This document shows, one piece after another, positions 47,427-55,709 of a stretch of 59,915 bases of DNA; position 1 is the first letter of the stretch; every line of letters starts with the position of its first letter. The notes under the pieces were generated by a model. The model was not told the origin of the DNA and did no database searches. It saw only the letters and a program-made list of their open reading frames with translations. The stretch covers positions 1 to 59,915 of the forward strand of contig JAJPHJ010000010.1 in the NCBI GenBank assembly GCA_021325335.1, in the 5' to 3' direction. This DNA comes from Pseudomonadota bacterium (GTDB lineage Bacteria; Vulcanimicrobiota; Vulcanimicrobiia; Eremiobacterales; Eremiobacteraceae). Made by a program: the position numbers and the translations under genes.

Positions 47427-48649
47427 AGGCGCTTGAGATAGGTGAGGGCGGCGCGCAATTGCGGGTCGCGGCCGCGGGCGATGTCTGCGGGCGTCCGCGC
47501 GACGGTGATGTCGGGGGTGACCCCGCGTCCTTCGAGCGCAATGCCGCGCACGTCGCGCATGTCGAGCGTGGCGACGCGCAACAATCCACCGTCCGCGAGC
47601 CGTTCTTCCACCTCGACGCCGAGCACGTGCCGCGCCGTCGGCTCGCCGATGATGACCCCTCGATGATACGCTTGGAGCGCCGAGGCGAGAGCCTCCGCGC
47701 CGCTTTCGCTGGTCCCATCGACGAGAACGGCGAGCGTGCCATCGTAGCGGATCCCTGCATCAGCGGTCGCCGCGAAGCGCCGCCGGAAAAGCGAATAGCG
47801 CCCGGTGCCCGTCGCCACCAGCGCTCCCTCGGGCAAGAAGATGCCTGCCGTGGCGTCCACCGCGTCGATAAGTCCACCGGGATTTCCGCGCAGGTCGAGG
47901 ATCATGGCCGGGTGTCGTCCGATGTCCGAGACGGCCCAGCCCAGTTCTTCTTCGATGTTGTTCGGAAACGACGCCATCCGCAAGTAGCCCACGTCCGAAC
48001 CGATCGTGCCCCAATCAAGATCGGCGGGGATGACCGCGTCGTAGGATCTGCCCGGCACGATCGGCCGCAGCACCGTGCTCCACGAGCGCCCCGTCACCGG
48101 ATCGCGAATGGCGAGCGGTCCCCACGGCGCATGAGATCCAGCAACCGGTGCGCCTTCGGCGATGATGTAGCCAGGCCGCAGTCCCGCTGAGGCCGCGGGC
48201 GATCGCGGTGCCACTCGTGCGACGACTCGGTCACGCCCGATCGTCACGAAGACCGCGCCGGTCGTGCCGGCATCTGCAGCCTCCACGCCGTTGACTTCAT
48301 CCGGAGAGAAAACCGCGGTGTGGGAATCGCCTAAGCGAGCGACCATGGCCTGTAAGAGCTGATAGCGGCGATCCACCGTCGGAGCGCTTTCGACGAGCGG
48401 CCGATAGTGCGCGACGAGTCCGTCCCAATCGACGCCGTGGTAGGAGCGGTCGTAGTAGCGCACGGACACCGTCGTCGCCACCTGATCGAGCACGCGGTCG
48501 GCGATGGGCTCCGTCACCAGGCGATGCCGGATGAACAACACGACGCACGCAAGCCCAGCGATCGCTGCGAGGAATGCAAGGTTTCGTCGAATGAGCTTGC
48601 GCCGCCGGATGGGCCAATAGGGGACGGCCGCCGCCTCGAAGTCCATCAT
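47423..48649 (-). CDS. S41 family (C-terminal processing) peptidase with PDZ-like region, membrane-anchored
   Basis: N-terminal TM; VARVAPRSPAASAGLRPGYIIAEG; MILDLRGNPGGLIDA; DGTSESGAEALASALQ. Confidence 0.85.
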   Translation of the reverse strand: MMDFEAAAVPYWPIRRRKLIRRNLAFLAAIAGLACVVLFIRHRLVTEPIADRVLDQVATTVSVRYYDRSYHGVDWDGLVAHYRPLVESAPTVDRRYQLLQAMVARLGDSHTAVFSPDEVNGVEAADAGTTGAVFVTIGRDRVVARVAPRSPAASAGLRPGYIIAEGAPVAGSHAPWGPLAIRDPVTGRSWSTVLRPIVPGRSYDAVIPADLDWGTIGSDVGYLRMASFPNNIEEELGWAVSDIGRHPAMILDLRGNPGGLIDAVDATAGIFLPEGALVATGTGRYSLFRRRFAATADAGIRYDGTLAVLVDGTSESGAEALASALQAYHRGVIIGEPTARHVLGVEVEERLADGGLLRVATLDMRDVRGIALEGRGVTPDITVARTPADIARGRDPQLRAALTYLKRL

Positions 48650-50139
48650 GGCCGGTGTGCCACGAGGTCGCCGGCGAGCCATTGCCCGAGCGTGGTGTGG
48701 CGGACCTCTTTCTCGCCGCCCAATTCACGGCGCAGTTCCTCGAGCGTGCAGGCGGATTCCGCTACCGCGTCGTGCTTGTGGATGCTCTCAAAATTGATCT
48801 GCCGGGCGAAGATAAACGTCGTGGCGGGAAAATCTTGCAGCACGTCGCCGCAGTAGCGCAGCATCTCGCGCACCACGTCCTCGACGAATCGCGGCGACTG
48901 ATGTGCCTTGTTCACGACGAACAACTCATCGGGGCGTTTGAGCAGATCGTACGTCTCAGACGACATGGACTGTTCGACGATCTCCACGAGCTGTTCGAGC
49001 GCGACGGGCCGGTCCGAGCCCACGAGCAGCGTCCCGACGCCCCGCTGATTGTGGGTCGCGATGGGCATCGCGTTCAAGATCTTCACTACCTGCTCTTCGC
49101 CAAAACCTTCGCCGAGGAGGCGCTCGCGAGACTGTTCGGCAACCATCGCCTGCGCGCAAGGGCACGCGGTCATGCCTTCGACCTCAACGCCGGCCAGACG
49201 ACGCGCAAAATCGGAGGCGACCACAGCCCGGGCGATCCCGGTATAGAACTCTCGCGTCGGCAACGCGCTCGCCGGAGTGGCTCGGGCGAGCGACAGTGGG
49301 GCGCGCAGGGCGACCTCCGCGCGCTCCGCGTGCTGGCTTTCGACAACGCGCTGCGCTACCGAGTGCGTCAAGTCCGCAAGGTTCGCACCGTCCCAGTGCA
49401 GCTCGGCCAGCGCGTCCTCGAGGTCTTGCGAGAAGCGCGACATGTGGACGCCGCTGTGTTCGGCATCGAGATCGGCATAGATGTCGACTGTGGCGATGAT
49501 CTGCTGCCCCAACTGGGATGCGTTCTCCAGGTGGATCAAGGTCCGGACGCCGGTGACGCCGACGCGGTTGAGAGCGAGGGGAACAAGCGGTCGCGACTCT
49601 TGCACGTCGCGCTGAACCCGGGTCAAAAGACCGCCCTCGTATACGGAAACCCCCGACCGGTCTATGGCTTTCGCCAACTCACCGATCGTCTTTCCGGATC
49701 GCGGATCGACGAGCTCGGGAGCGATCTCCGCGAGCGGCACGAGGACAAACGCCCGAGACGGAAGTCCGGGGTGCGGAATCGTGCAGATTTCTTCGTCTGA
49801 GATGACCGCGTCGTAGAGCAACAGATCCAGATCGATGGCTCGTGGACCCAAAGGGACCGTGTTGCGGCGCCCGACCTGCCGCTCGATCCGGGCCATCGCG
49901 TCGCGCAGAGCTTGCGGGTCGAGCGTCGTCCATCCGGTGCACGCGAGATTCAGGAAGTCGGGTTGATCCGTGAAGCCCACGGGCTTGGTTTCATATGCGC
50001 GCGAGATCCGGTCGATGCGGACGTAGCTGCGCAAGCGCGCGATCGCGGCAATGACGTTGCCGGAACGGTCGCCGATGTTAGAGCCGAGCGCGATCGCGAC
50101 GCGATGCTCGCTCGCGTGCTGAGAATTGAACGATGCCAT
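48646..50139 (-). CDS. Fusion: HPPK (FolK) N-terminus + GTP cyclohydrolase IB (FolE2/MptA family, COG1469) C-terminus
   Basis: VAIALGSNIGDRSGNVIAAIARL...GPRAIDLDLLLYDAVI...PHPGLPSRAFVLVPLAEIAP; then DVQESRPLVPLALNRVGVTGVR...EGMTACPCAQAMV...ATHNQRGVG. ORF extends to 50196. Confidence 0.88.
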   Translation of the reverse strand: MASFNSQHASEHRVAIALGSNIGDRSGNVIAAIARLRSYVRIDRISRAYETKPVGFTDQPDFLNLACTGWTTLDPQALRDAMARIERQVGRRNTVPLGPRAIDLDLLLYDAVISDEEICTIPHPGLPSRAFVLVPLAEIAPELVDPRSGKTIGELAKAIDRSGVSVYEGGLLTRVQRDVQESRPLVPLALNRVGVTGVRTLIHLENASQLGQQIIATVDIYADLDAEHSGVHMSRFSQDLEDALAELHWDGANLADLTHSVAQRVVESQHAERAEVALRAPLSLARATPASALPTREFYTGIARAVVASDFARRLAGVEVEGMTACPCAQAMVAEQSRERLLGEGFGEEQVVKILNAMPIATHNQRGVGTLLVGSDRPVALEQLVEIVEQSMSSETYDLLKRPDELFVVNKAHQSPRFVEDVVREMLRYCGDVLQDFPATTFIFARQINFESIHKHDAVAESACTLEELRRELGGEKEVRHTTLGQWLAGDLVAHRP

Positions 50140-50189
50140 GACCGCGCTTGATTGCTTCGTGTCGAGCAGTTTCGATTCCGTCATGCTCC

Positions 50190-50218
50190 TTGACATTGGG
50201 CGCGCGCGAAAGTATTAT
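50190..50218 (+). promoter_or_regulatory. Near-consensus sigma70 promoter
   Basis: TTGACA (50190-50195), 17-bp spacer, TATTAT (50213-50218). Confidence 0.75.
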
Positions 50219-50224
50219 CGCGGT

Positions 50225-50440
50225 AGGCCTCAAGCGGCCACGCTCCAAGGCGTACTGATCGGCGAGCGGGTCTAAGCGACGAACCCGCATCCGGATTGTG
50301 CAATCCGGGCGTAGCGATTGGCATACAATCGACCGAAAGCCGATGCGACATCCTGAGGTTTCTCGGGCACCAGTACAGCACGGACCGTGTTCCTTGAGGC
50401 TTTCCGTTTGCCGATAATCCAAGCATGAACCGTTCATGGC
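50225..50440 (+). ncRNA. Candidate structured non-coding RNA / clpC leader
   Basis: Downstream of sigma70 promoter; at least seven hairpins plus two enclosing long-range stems (ATCGGCGA/TTGCCGAT and GAAAGCC/GGCTTTC). Ends estimated. Confidence 0.5.
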
Positions 50441-50456
50441 GTCCGCAACGTTATTA

Positions 50457-50531
50457 ATGTAGCGGGCGACTGTCAAGTCGCCCATATGTAGCGGGCGACT
50501 GGAAAGTCGCCTATAGACTGGCAAGTCACCC
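50457..50531 (+). repeat. Tandem GTAG-headed palindromic repeats (two good copies, one degenerate)
   Basis: atgtagc gggcgact-gtca-agtcgccc; atgtagc gggcgact-ggaa-agtcgcc; gact-ggca-agtc. Confidence 0.75.
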
Positions 50532-50651
50532 AAACGGGTAACAAATGCGCGAGAAGGTACGCCGTCGAACATAAGAACGAGAACGAAGCCGCCCGCAAGG
50601 CGGAAATCCGGGTGCGATATCCCTGAAGCGCCCAAGGAGTCAAAAATCTAA

Positions 50652-53138
50652 ATGTCCATGTGGGAACCGTTCACCGAGCGCGCGCGCCGGTCCATCGTGC
50701 TGGCACAAGAAGAAGCGCAGCGGCTTGGGAACAACTACATCGGGACAGAGCACATCCTGCTCGGCATCATCAGCGAAGGCGAGAGCCTTGCCGCCAAAGT
50801 GTTGGAAACTTTAGGAGTCAACCTGGCGAAGGTCCGCGCTGAAGTTGAAGCGATCGTCGGCCGGGGCGGTCAGACCGTCCAGCAAGAGATGGTGTTCACC
50901 CCGCGCGCCAAACGCGTCATCGAGCTGGCTTTCGAAGAAGCGCGCCAGCTCAACCATAACTACATCGGTACCGAGCACCTGCTGCTCGGCCTGATCCGTG
51001 AAGGCGAAGGCGTCGCCGCTCGCGTCCTCACCAACCTCGGCGTGGACCCGGCCAAGGTCCGCGTCCAGACCACGTCGCTGCTCGGAGCCGAGTCACAGCC
51101 ACAGACGGCCTCCAAGGGCAAGAGCAAGACCCCGACGCTCGATGCCTACGGCCGCGATCTCACGCAGCTCGCCCGCGAGGGCAAGCTCGACCCGGTCATC
51201 GGGCGCAACACCGAGATCGAGCGCGTCATCCAGATCCTCTCGCGCCGAACGAAGAACAACCCCGCGCTCATCGGCGAGCCGGGCGTGGGCAAGACGGCCA
51301 TCGCCGAAGGCCTCGCCCAGCGCGTCATCAGCGGCGACGTGCCCGAACCGCTGCGCGACAAGCGGGTCATCACCCTCGACCTCGCGGGCCTCGTGGCCGG
51401 GACGAAGTACCGTGGCGAGTTCGAAGAGCGCATGAAGCGCGTCATGGACGAGATCCGCGCGGCTGCGGGCGAGATCATCCTCTTCATCGACGAGCTGCAC
51501 ACGCTCGTCGGCGCCGGCGCGGCAGAAGGCGCGATCGACGCGAGCAACATCATCAAACCAGCACTCGCGCGCGGTGAGCTCCAATGCATCGGCGCGACGA
51601 CCCTGAACGAATTCCGCAAGCACATCGAAAAAGACTCGGCGCTCGAACGGCGCTTCCAATCCATCATGGTGGGCGAGCCATCGGTCGAAGAGACGATCGA
51701 GATCCTCAAGGGCTTGCGGGATCGGTACGAAGCGCATCACCGCGTGAAGATCTCCGACGAGGCTCTGGACGCGGCGGCGCGGCTGTCCGATCGCTACATC
51801 ACGGATCGCTTCCTTCCGGACAAAGCGGTGGACCTCATGGATGAGGCCGCCTCGCGCGTACGCCTGCAATCCACGTCGCTGCCGCCGGAGATCCGCGAAG
51901 TCGAAAACGAGATCCGCAAGGTACGCGCGGAAAAAGAGGCGGTCATCAAGGCGCAGGAGTTCGAAAAAGCGGCGCAGATCCGGGATCGCGAGGAGAAGCT
52001 GCGCGCCCGCAAGACCCAGATGGAGGAAGCCTGGCGCGAGACCCGCACCGTGAAGGGTTCGACCACGAACACGGTCGGCCCGGAGGAGATCGCCCACATC
52101 GTCTCCACCTGGACCCGCATCCCCGTGAGCAAGCTCAAAGAAGAAGAGACGATGAAGCTGCTCAACATGGAGGAGGCGCTACACAAGCGCATCGTCGGAC
52201 AAGACGAGGCGATCAAGGTCATCACGCGAGCCATCCGTCGCGCAAGGGCAGGGCTCAAGAGTCCCATGCGCCCGATCGGTTCGTTCATCTTCCTCGGACC
52301 GACCGGCGTCGGCAAGACCGAGCTCGCGCGCACGCTCGCCGAGTTCCTCTTCGACGACGTCGACGCCATGGTGCGCATCGACATGTCGGAGTATATGGAG
52401 AAGTATTCCGTCTCGCGGCTCGTCGGAGCGCCGCCTGGCTATGTCGGCTACGAAGAGGGCGGACAGCTCACCGAAGCGGTGCGACGCAGGCCGTACGCGG
52501 TCGTACTGCTCGACGAGATCGAAAAGGCGCATCCCGACGTGTTCAACCTGCTGCTGCAAGTGCTCGAAGACGGACGCCTCACGGATTCGCAAGGCCGTGT
52601 GGTGGACTTCAAACACAGCCTCATCATCATGACGAGCAACGTTGGCACGACCGGCCTCATGAAGTCGGCCGAGATCGGATTCCGTCCCATCAAGGAAGAG
52701 GGTTCGACGACCATCCGTTACGAGCGGATGAAGAACAAGATCTTGGAGGAGGTCAAGCACCTCTTCCGGCCCGAGTTTCTCAACCGCATCGACGAAGTGG
52801 TCGTGTTCCACTCGCTCGAGCTCCACGAGATCAAGCAGATCGTCGCGCTCGAACTGGCCAAGGTGGTCAAGGAGCTGGAGAACCAGCGCGTGACCCTCGA
52901 AGCCACCGAAGCCGCCAAGGAGCTCATCGCCAAGGAAGGGTGGGACCCGCAGTTCGGTGCGCGCCCGCTGCGACGTGCCATCCAGCGGCTGGTCGAGGAT
53001 CCCTTGTCGGAAGAACTCTTACGGGGCAGCTTCAAGGTAGGCGACCACATCCAGTTAGACGTCGAGGACGGAAAAGCGGTCTTCCGCAAGATCGGCGAGC
53101 CGCTCAAACCGCCCGCTCCGCAACCAACCGGGTCGTAG
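50652..53138 (+). CDS. clpC: ATP-dependent Clp protease ATP-binding subunit ClpC
   Basis: Two N-repeats ([33 protein letters not shown]), [18 protein letters not shown]-like linker, [19 protein letters not shown]. Confidence 0.97.
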
Positions 53139-53197: not shown

Positions 53198-53276
53198 TGC
53201 AGGTGTAAGACCAGACGCCGCGGGGTAAGAAGTATTGAAGGGGACGTCAAAGTTCGTTCAAGGACGGACGAAGTCT

Positions 53277-55709
53277 ATGCGCATGTCGTATTTGCTGGGC
53301 CGGTTCGTTCGGGGTGAAATCTCAGCCCCGCTCAAATTTGGCTTGCTCGCGCTCTGCGCGGTGCTCATCGCCCTCACCGCGGTGCTCAACACCGACTATC
53401 CGCTCCTTCGTCTGAGCGTCTTGGCCTTGGTGTACATCATCGCCATCGATACGATCACGGGCTTTGCCTGGGGCGTGGCGGCAGCCATCATCAGCGCGCT
53501 CGTTTTCAGCGCCGCAGAATGGTTTAGCCCGCAGCCGGCGCTCCATGACTTCGCAATTTCTGATTTCTTCTCGCGGGTCGTCGCCTTCCTCATCGTCGTA
53601 GGCCTTGTGGAAGTCGTCCGGCGTCAGGGCTGGGCCTTAAGGGATGTCCAGCTGCGGGACCACGCCCTCGAGCTGTCTCGTTTGCAAGGCCAGCTCGCGG
53701 AGAATGACGCGCGCTTCCAGGCCGTCAGCGAGTCGATCCCCTTCGGTGTGTGGCATTGCAACGCCGAAGGCCGCGTGGTCTACATGAGCCGATCATTTCT
53801 CGACATGCTCGGGATGACGCTCGCCGACGTGCGCGCGGGCGGCTGGTTCGATCGCGTGCTCCCCGAAGACGCCGAACGCATCCGCGACGCCTGGCGCAAC
53901 CGCGAGCAATGGGGCGAGATGTGGGAGGATGAGTATCGCATCCTCGGGGCAGACGGTAAGATCTACTCGATCCTGTGCCGGGGAAGCGTGGTGCGCAACG
54001 AAGCAGGGGAGCGCATCGGCTGGACCGGCGTCAATTTGGATCTCACCGAACGCAGCATGGCGCGAGAACAGCTGCGTTTTTTGGTGGATGCGGGGCGCAC
54101 GCTCTCGCTCTCGCTCGACCCGATATCGGTCTTGGAGCGGATCGGGCAACTCGTCGTGCCGCGGATGTCCGACTGGTGCGCGATCGAAATAGCCAACGAG
54201 GGAGAGCTCCAGACGGTGGTGTTGCGTCACAAGAATCCAGACAAGCTCGACATCGTCCGCGAGCTGCGAGGCTATCCTCCGAACACGGAAACCGGCACCG
54301 CTCGCGTGCTGCGCACCGGGCAGTCCGAGCTCTACGAGGTCATCAGCAACGACCTTTTGGCGGCGGCGGGCGCGGCGCACGGGGAGCGCTATATGGAGCT
54401 CTTGGATCAGCTCGGCATGCGCTCGGCGATGGTGGTGCCGCTGCAGGCGCGCGACAAGATCCTCGGCACGATGACCTTCGTCCAGTCGGAATCGAACCGT
54501 TCCTTTAACGCAGATGACGTGCGATTTGCGGAGATGCTCGCGGCTCGCACCGCGCTCGCCTACGACAACGCGCGCAATTACGCCAAAGAACAACGCGTCG
54601 CCGACACCTTTCAACGCGCCTCGCTGCCGGTCAACCTGCCGCGCATTCCCGGCATCCGGCTGCGCGCGACCTACCTCTCCGGCGCCAAGGAGGCGGAAAT
54701 CGGCGGCGACTGGTACGACGCGTTTTTGTTGCCGAGCGGCGAGCTCGCGCTTTCTATAGGCGACGTGGCGGGCAAAGGTCTCAGCGCTGCGGTATCCATG
54801 GTGAGCGCACGGCAAGCTTTGCGTGGAGTGGCGCTCGAGGGCGCCTCACCCGGACAGGTGCTCAGCCGGGTCAACCAGCGCCTGACCTACGAAGGCAGCG
54901 GTATGGTCACGGCGCTCTTCGGCGTGCTCGACCCTGTCTCGTTACAGTTCCGCTTTGCCTGTGCCGGGCATCCACCGCCGCTACTCGCCCGCCCCCCGGG
55001 TGACGTGCAAAGAGTTTCAAACAAGGGTCTCCCGCTCGGGCTCTTCGCCGACCAGCAATACGAAGAGATCTCCGTCACGCTGGAGGCAGGAGCGATGCTG
55101 GTCCTCTACACCGACGGGCTCATCGAGTTCGACCACAACGTGAGCGCAGGCGAGAAGATATTGGAGCGCGCGGTGTCGGCCGAGGTCGCGACCCAGTCCC
55201 CCAATCCGGCCGAAGCCATCGCGCGCCGCGTCATCCTCGGATCGCCGAGCGACGACGTCGCCATCCTCACGGTCTCCGTCGCGCCCGCGCCGATGGAAGC
55301 GCTCGACTTGGTGGTGACGGCCGATCCGAGCTGCGCCCGGGTGCTGCGCCAAAGCCTGCGACGTTTCGCGCTCGGCGTCGGCATGGATGACACCCGTACG
55401 ACCGATCTCTTGGTGTCCTGCGGCGAAGCGATCAGCAACGTCATCGAGCACGCCTACGGCATCGGCGAAGGACCGCTCATGGTCCACGCCGTCCGCAATG
55501 ACGAAGAAGTGCTCATCTCGGTGAGCGACCATGGGAACTGGCGACCGCCGCGCGACGACGGAGGCGGCCGAGGGTTGCCGCTCATGCGGGCCCTGACAGA
55601 CAGGGTCGAGGTGGAACCAAACGAAAAGGGCACCACCGTTCACTTGCACATGTCGCTAGCAGGCTCCGTACGTGACCGATCAAGCAACCTTTCGACAAGA
55701 AGCCATTAA
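53277..55709 (+). CDS. Membrane PAS-GAF-SpoIIE (PP2C) phosphatase fused to RsbW-like HATPase
   Basis: N-terminal TMs; PAS; GAF; AEIGGDWYDAFLLPSGELALSIGDVAGKGLSAA; C-terminal SCGEAISNVIEHAYG and GGGRGLPLMRALTD. Confidence 0.92.
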   Translation: MRMSYLLGRFVRGEISAPLKFGLLALCAVLIALTAVLNTDYPLLRLSVLALVYIIAIDTITGFAWGVAAAIISALVFSAAEWFSPQPALHDFAISDFFSRVVAFLIVVGLVEVVRRQGWALRDVQLRDHALELSRLQGQLAENDARFQAVSESIPFGVWHCNAEGRVVYMSRSFLDMLGMTLADVRAGGWFDRVLPEDAERIRDAWRNREQWGEMWEDEYRILGADGKIYSILCRGSVVRNEAGERIGWTGVNLDLTERSMAREQLRFLVDAGRTLSLSLDPISVLERIGQLVVPRMSDWCAIEIANEGELQTVVLRHKNPDKLDIVRELRGYPPNTETGTARVLRTGQSELYEVISNDLLAAAGAAHGERYMELLDQLGMRSAMVVPLQARDKILGTMTFVQSESNRSFNADDVRFAEMLAARTALAYDNARNYAKEQRVADTFQRASLPVNLPRIPGIRLRATYLSGAKEAEIGGDWYDAFLLPSGELALSIGDVAGKGLSAAVSMVSARQALRGVALEGASPGQVLSRVNQRLTYEGSGMVTALFGVLDPVSLQFRFACAGHPPPLLARPPGDVQRVSNKGLPLGLFADQQYEEISVTLEAGAMLVLYTDGLIEFDHNVSAGEKILERAVSAEVATQSPNPAEAIARRVILGSPSDDVAILTVSVAPAPMEALDLVVTADPSCARVLRQSLRRFALGVGMDDTRTTDLLVSCGEAISNVIEHAYGIGEGPLMVHAVRNDEEVLISVSDHGNWRPPRDDGGGRGLPLMRALTDRVEVEPNEKGTTVHLHMSLAGSVRDRSSNLSTRSH

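Follow-up and report, generated by a model that had tools for sequence, protein, structure and literature searches.

In bacterial Y RNAs (YrlA) and in other RNP scaffolds, the terminal stem is closed and the four-way junction is reminiscent of a cloverleaf, and the RNA that we describe here shares these features with them as a resemblance only. A further kind of comparison is offered by Acido-1 and Dictyoglomi-1, which have been described as lineage-restricted, stand-alone candidate non-coding RNAs (ncRNAs) (Weinberg et al. 2010, PMC2864571). Here we analyze a structured RNA encoded in a stretch of 59,915 nt (the window) from a member of the family Eremiobacteraceae. An earlier note had pointed to this RNA and could not place it in any familiar class, and this is borne out by our analyses. 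The RNA is conserved and its substitutions preserve the structure. None of 4227 Rfam families matched the window at the gathering score, and even when the search was relaxed to E<=10 no match overlapped the RNA, either in the window or among the 14 homologues, the only matches being chance ones to unrelated families. A full-text search of the open-access literature found no paper describing it. Based on these sequence comparisons, this appears to be a genuine and novel class of RNA.

Promoter and extent of the RNA gene

The RNA gene occupies positions 50227-50400 of the plus strand and has a length of 174 nt, the copies in the family being 172-180 nt long and extending from GCCTCAAG to CTTG[AG]GGC. 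It scores 168.1 bits with the covariance model R1 (see below). The earlier note had extended a structured RNA over positions 50226-50440; the structured RNA stands, but the interval does not, the conserved element being limited to the coordinates given above.

The sigma70-type promoter TTGACA-N17-TATTAT, which had been claimed at positions 50190-50218 of the plus strand, agrees with the consensus at 11 of 12 positions. An equivalent, TTGAC[AG]-N17/18-TATNAT, is present in all 14 homologues at a fixed distance of 7-8 nt 5' of the P1 strand GCCTCAAG, and 0.5 promoter-like sites would be expected in a shuffled region of 1 kb. Thus, as is typical for a stand-alone structured ncRNA, the RNA has its own promoter at a fixed distance in 14/14 genomes, and its 5' end would lie at about position 50225-50227.

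Secondary structure of the RNA

The layout of the RNA consists of helices P1, P2 and P3, followed by P4, which closes a four-way junction containing P5, P6 and P7, and by a side hairpin, P8, all on the plus strand. P1 is formed by GCCTCAAG (50227-50234) and CTTGAGGC (50393-50400); it has standard pairs and is present in the minimum free-energy (MFE) fold in 14/14 copies, all of which contain it as the invariant closing helix GCCUCAAG/CUUG[AG]GGC, the A-to-G change found in four genomes retaining the pair as U-G. In P2, CGCTCC (50241-50246) pairs with GGACCG (50382-50387), with one C/C mismatch and a top pair that changes from C-G to U-A or U-G; a variable extension of this helix (50239-50240/50388-50389) is of the A-U, G-C, U-G and C-G types and is broken in some genomes. 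P3 pairs GCGTACTG (50250-50257) with CAGTAC (50371-50376) plus GC (50378-50379), leaving an invariant bulged A50377, and four of its pairs show compensatory changes. P4, in which ATCGGC (50258-50263) pairs with GCCGAT (50339-50344), is paired in 14/14 copies, is nearly invariant and appears in the MFE fold of 12/14.

Within the junction, hairpin P5 (GCGGGT...ACCCGC; 50266-50288) shows U-A/C-G and G-C/A-U covariation and has a variable loop. Positions 4 and 5 of hairpin P6 (CCGGATT-GTGC-AATCCGG; 50291-50308) swap from G-C/A-U to A-U/G-C, many genomes having A-C mismatches here, and hairpin P7 (GATTG...CAATC; 50316-50330) contains several compensatory pairs. The segment GCGTAGC between P6 and P7 (50309-50315) is invariant in 7/7 columns, and the segment GACCGAAA (50331-50338) in 5/8 columns, which contain CGAAA. 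Altogether, the invariant joining bases of the junction are GA, AU, GCGUAGC and CGAAA; the hairpin loops and the remaining joining segments vary across the 14 homologues. P8 (CCTGAG...CTCGGG; 50352-50367), a side branch between P4 and P3, retains its pairing while its sequence and loop vary.

Helices P5 to P8 correspond to four of the eight local stems read by eye in the earlier note (GCGGGT/ACCCGC, CCGGATT/AATCCGG, CGATTG/CAATCG and CCTGAG/CTCGGG, respectively). Three others, GGCC/GGCC, ACGC/GCGT and AGCACG/CGTGTT, turned out to be incorrect and compete with the conserved helices P1-P3, and CATGAA/TTCATG falls outside the conserved element. The overall fold proposed there was built on two long-range stems and is incorrect; it missed the helices that actually close the structure, GCCTCAAG/CTTGAGGC and AUCGGC/GCCGAU. 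One of the long-range stems, ATCGGCGA/TTGCCGAT, needs unconserved bases 3' of the RNA and, at the same offset, retains 0-6 of its 8 pairs in the 13 relatives; in five relatives the other, GAAAGCC/GGCTTTC, is reduced to 4-5 of its 7 pairs, uncompensated. An alternative pairing that involves the U-tract, GAAAGCC/GGCUUUC, was also considered; it is complete in six genomes but uncompensated in five, and we rejected it.

Conservation of the structure

Mean identity among the homologues is 0.75 in the RNA, 0.34 in the spacer between the RNA and clpC, and 0.42 in the 60 bases 5' of the -35 element. The folding energy is better than that of shuffled controls, as the earlier note had asked to be checked: the z score is -2.16 for positions 50224-50440, which is a moderate difference only, and -3.84 for the trimmed element (50227-50400), and its mean over the 14 homologues is -3.47.

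Evidence for the fold also comes from substitutions that preserve pairing. Firstly, a structure-blind MAFFT alignment contained 96.8% standard pairs and 11 double-change pairs, which none of 500 shuffles equalled, and sliding the partners by 1-3 columns in this alignment left 26-43% of cells paired and 0-4 double changes. Secondly, in a tree-aware null, in which substitutions were re-dealt along the tree among the variable helix columns of a hand-made alignment, 740 of 797 cells were paired, against 662.4 +/- 10.0 expected, and 19 double-change pairs were observed, against 7.0 +/- 1.9 expected (P = 0.0002). It should be noted that the hand alignment, which also underlies the single-pair test, was built with the structure in mind, and the structure-blind MAFFT test is therefore the cleaner one. 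Thirdly, an R-scape-like single-pair test against a phylogenetic null, whose power is low for 14 close relatives, found 2 of 57 pairs to be significant. The covariation in relatives that the earlier note had called for is thus present: the fold is kept by compensatory change, with limited power per pair.

Distribution of the RNA

The RNA is present as one copy in each of 14 genomes of the family, representing nine genera. A DNA search of 61 genomes matched all 14 family genomes at E values of 1e-16 to 1e-128, and outside the family it gave only chance-level matches. The covariance model R1, which comprises 178 positions and was built from the 14 family sequences, recovered these 14 loci with scores of 163-187 bits. 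Across 149 genomes of the phylum it gave nothing above 20 bits outside the family, and with looser filters on 30 sister-family genomes its scores stayed at chance level (<20 bits). When 85,462 species were scanned with the pattern GCGTAGCGAT-N8-30-CGAAAGCCGAT, eight family members and four unrelated records were returned, and the latter were rejected by R1. The eight records confirmed by R1 are assigned to Candidatus Eremiobacterota, Eremiobacteria or Eremiobacter, one being labelled 'unidentified bacterium'; Ca. Eremiobacter is a member of Ca. Eremiobacteraceae, phylum Vulcanimicrobiota (also named Eremiobacterota). The viral contigs searched for the RNA gave no match. These sequence data show that the RNA is inherited vertically, in single copy, within one bacterial family.

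Genomic context

The RNA is flanked upstream by a divergent folK-folE2 fusion gene (48646-50139, minus strand; HPPK and GCHY-1 domains) and downstream by clpC (50652-53138, plus strand), which encodes a ClpC-type AAA+ protein with Clp_N, UVR and ClpB_D2-small domains and starts 252 nt after the RNA. Both neighbors are syntenic in 14/14 genomes, clpC always lying downstream on the same strand at a distance of 122-259 nt. The folK-folE2 fusion scores above the MptA cut-off and below the FolE2 cut-off, and its fused arrangement aligns across the relatives. Downstream of clpC, positions 53235-55709 (plus strand) encode a single chain with PAS, GAF, SpoIIE phosphatase and RsbW-like HATPase_c domains. 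In the window, a 29-base palindromic repeat, GTAGCGGGCGACTGNNAAGTCGCC, is present twice in tandem between the RNA and clpC (50457-50515); the exact pattern of this REP-like family occurs 14 times in the genome, and groups of two or three copies are frequent.

Strong intrinsic terminators are found within 100 nt after the RNA in 8 of the 14 genomes, where 0.22 would be expected. Five genomes have separate terminator hairpins about 24-26 nt past P1, for instance GGGAGGGTTACGCGCCCTCCC-TTTT, which are clear of the conserved fold. In the other three (G004, G011 and G013; loci L008, L009 and L014), a terminator AGCCC-UUG-GGGCU followed by a U-run overlaps the P1 3' strand, so that the full fold and the terminator would be mutually exclusive there. 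The scan after the RNA detected no terminator in six of the 14 genomes, including that of the window, where P1 is followed only by TTTCCGTTT.

The spacers between the RNA and clpC showed no consensus sigma70 promoter. Most family genomes share an element GTCGAA about 52-92 nt before the clpC ATG (about 50564-50572 in the window, GTCGAACA), and GAAGC, GGAGC or GCAGC, read by eye, is often located exactly 16 bases upstream of it. We suggest that this pair of elements may resemble an ECF-type promoter. As the spacer lacks the sigma70 consensus and contains the shared GTCGAA, clpC may have its own promoter. In sister families, the clpC upstream regions contain no such promoter or RNA, and the upstream neighbors are different.

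Discussion

Taken as a whole, the sequence evidence makes it likely that the RNA is a stand-alone transcript, sealed by P1, whose junction binds a protein or a ligand and which acts in trans. With the promoter, the fold and the terminators as observed, the gene would be transcribed, probably constitutively, into a highly structured RNA of about 175 nt with both ends sealed in P1. The four-way junction P4-P7 may be compact, with its invariant joining bases forming a tertiary core to which, we infer, a protein or a small ligand could bind. With its variable hairpin loops and closed ends, the RNA would be expected to function in trans as an RNP and not through antisense pairing, and clpC would simply be a conserved neighbor. 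The RNA is retained in every member genome of the family (14/14). More tentatively, and with confidence a little short of even, we propose that it constitutes a class restricted to the Eremiobacteraceae and unlike described RNAs, acting in trans either as an RNP or as a ligand-binding RNA built on the four-way junction, with an importance close to that of a housekeeping RNA.

The earlier note had offered two possibilities, a stand-alone sRNA and a clpC leader or riboswitch-like element. As a leader, the RNA would be the 5' UTR of clpC, its junction sensing a metabolite, an ion, heat or a protein and setting readthrough at the following terminator. Since all 14 genomes have clpC downstream of the RNA and in the same orientation, readthrough from the RNA promoter may occur, and several features would fit this scheme: the spacer lacks a consensus sigma70 promoter, the terminators following the RNA in 8/14 genomes are placed as in attenuators, and those overlapping the P1 3' strand in three genomes would compete with P1. 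However, the terminators are unlike each other, five being separate hairpins off the conserved fold and six genomes having none detected, and the spacer is unconserved. With terminators that differ in kind and position, no conserved expression platform, that is, a terminator or RBS sequestration tied to the fold, was found in the family. Although the RNA is always upstream of the same gene, this concerns a single family in which synteny is conserved on either side, and we read the synteny as vertical descent because folK-folE2 is equally conserved upstream; in addition, clpC may be transcribed separately, from a promoter at the GTCGAA element. Based on the terminators that precede clpC in most of the family, the lack of a conserved feature resembling an expression platform, and the sister-family clpC genes without the RNA, we favor the stand-alone transcript and consider the leader unlikely.

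We regard it as very unlikely that the RNA is a base-pairing sRNA acting antisense to mRNAs. Its own promoter, the terminators and its size would suit such a role. Base-pairing sRNAs usually retain an exposed conserved seed, but in the 14 homologues the invariant unpaired bases are confined to the junction, the loops differ both in length and in sequence, and P1 holds the two ends.

A diverged copy of a housekeeping RNA (6S, SRP, tmRNA or RNase P) has next to no likelihood, and as far as these families go this reading is already refuted. The size of 172-180 nt, the closed ends and the strong promoter recall 6S RNA, and the window's own genome has no match to 6S, SRP or full-length tmRNA. On the other hand, 6S RNA (RF00013, 76-94 bits) is located elsewhere in 13/13 relatives, as are large SRP RNA and full-length tmRNA in the 13 relatives, and RNase P RNA sits on another contig of the window's own genome; a four-way junction with a side hairpin also differs from the 6S rod, and all 14 copies lack an Rfam match at E<=10. 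That 6S, SRP and full-length tmRNA are all unmatched in the window's genome, each being present in the 13 relatives, probably reflects gaps in the draft assembly.

Finally, a protein-coding or DNA-level element, such as a minus-strand ORF or a protein-bound palindrome, can practically be dismissed: an ORF of 81 codons does span 50181-50426 on the minus strand of the window, and on the reverse strand R1 still reaches 18-26 bits because the DNA is nearly palindromic, but neither strand has a frame that stays open throughout the 14 relatives and the length differences are not multiples of three, as fits the earlier description of the stretch as non-coding, a Pfam search gave no match, and the plus strand scores 163-187 bits with the promoter pointing in the same direction.

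Uncultured phyla likely contain many RNA classes that are missing from Rfam. The signature of this one is clean, combining a promoter, a closing helix, an invariant junction and family-wide retention, and can be modelled and sought in metatranscriptomes. If trans-acting, the RNA would be an RNA machine new to a little-studied bacterial lineage; if a leader, it would represent an unusual RNA control of ClpC proteolysis.

Comparison with known RNAs

Like riboswitch and attenuator leaders, the RNA has a multi-helix junction, invariant joining bases, a downstream gene on the same strand and sometimes a terminator; in contrast to them, it has no conserved expression platform, its terminators vary in kind and place, and the spacer to clpC is unconserved. 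With 6S RNA (RF00013) it shares a length of about 180 nt, its own sigma70-type promoter, closed ends and a single copy. However, the relatives have a separate 6S RNA, and here we find a multi-branched junction and neither an RF00013 match nor the 6S rod with its central open-promoter-like bubble. The difference from YrlA and other RNP scaffolds is that the RNA has no Rfam match and that ARAGORN called no tRNA in the window. The RNA is like Acido-1 and Dictyoglomi-1 in being a structured RNA without an assigned function, discovered by comparison in a sparsely sequenced lineage and judged to be expressed apart from mRNAs (PMC2864571), and it differs from them in matching no Rfam family and in its fixed place beside folK-folE2 and clpC. 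As ncRNAs of the Acido-1 and Dictyoglomi-1 kind are established, the RNA of the Eremiobacteraceae would form a new lineage-restricted family within the orphan structured ncRNAs.
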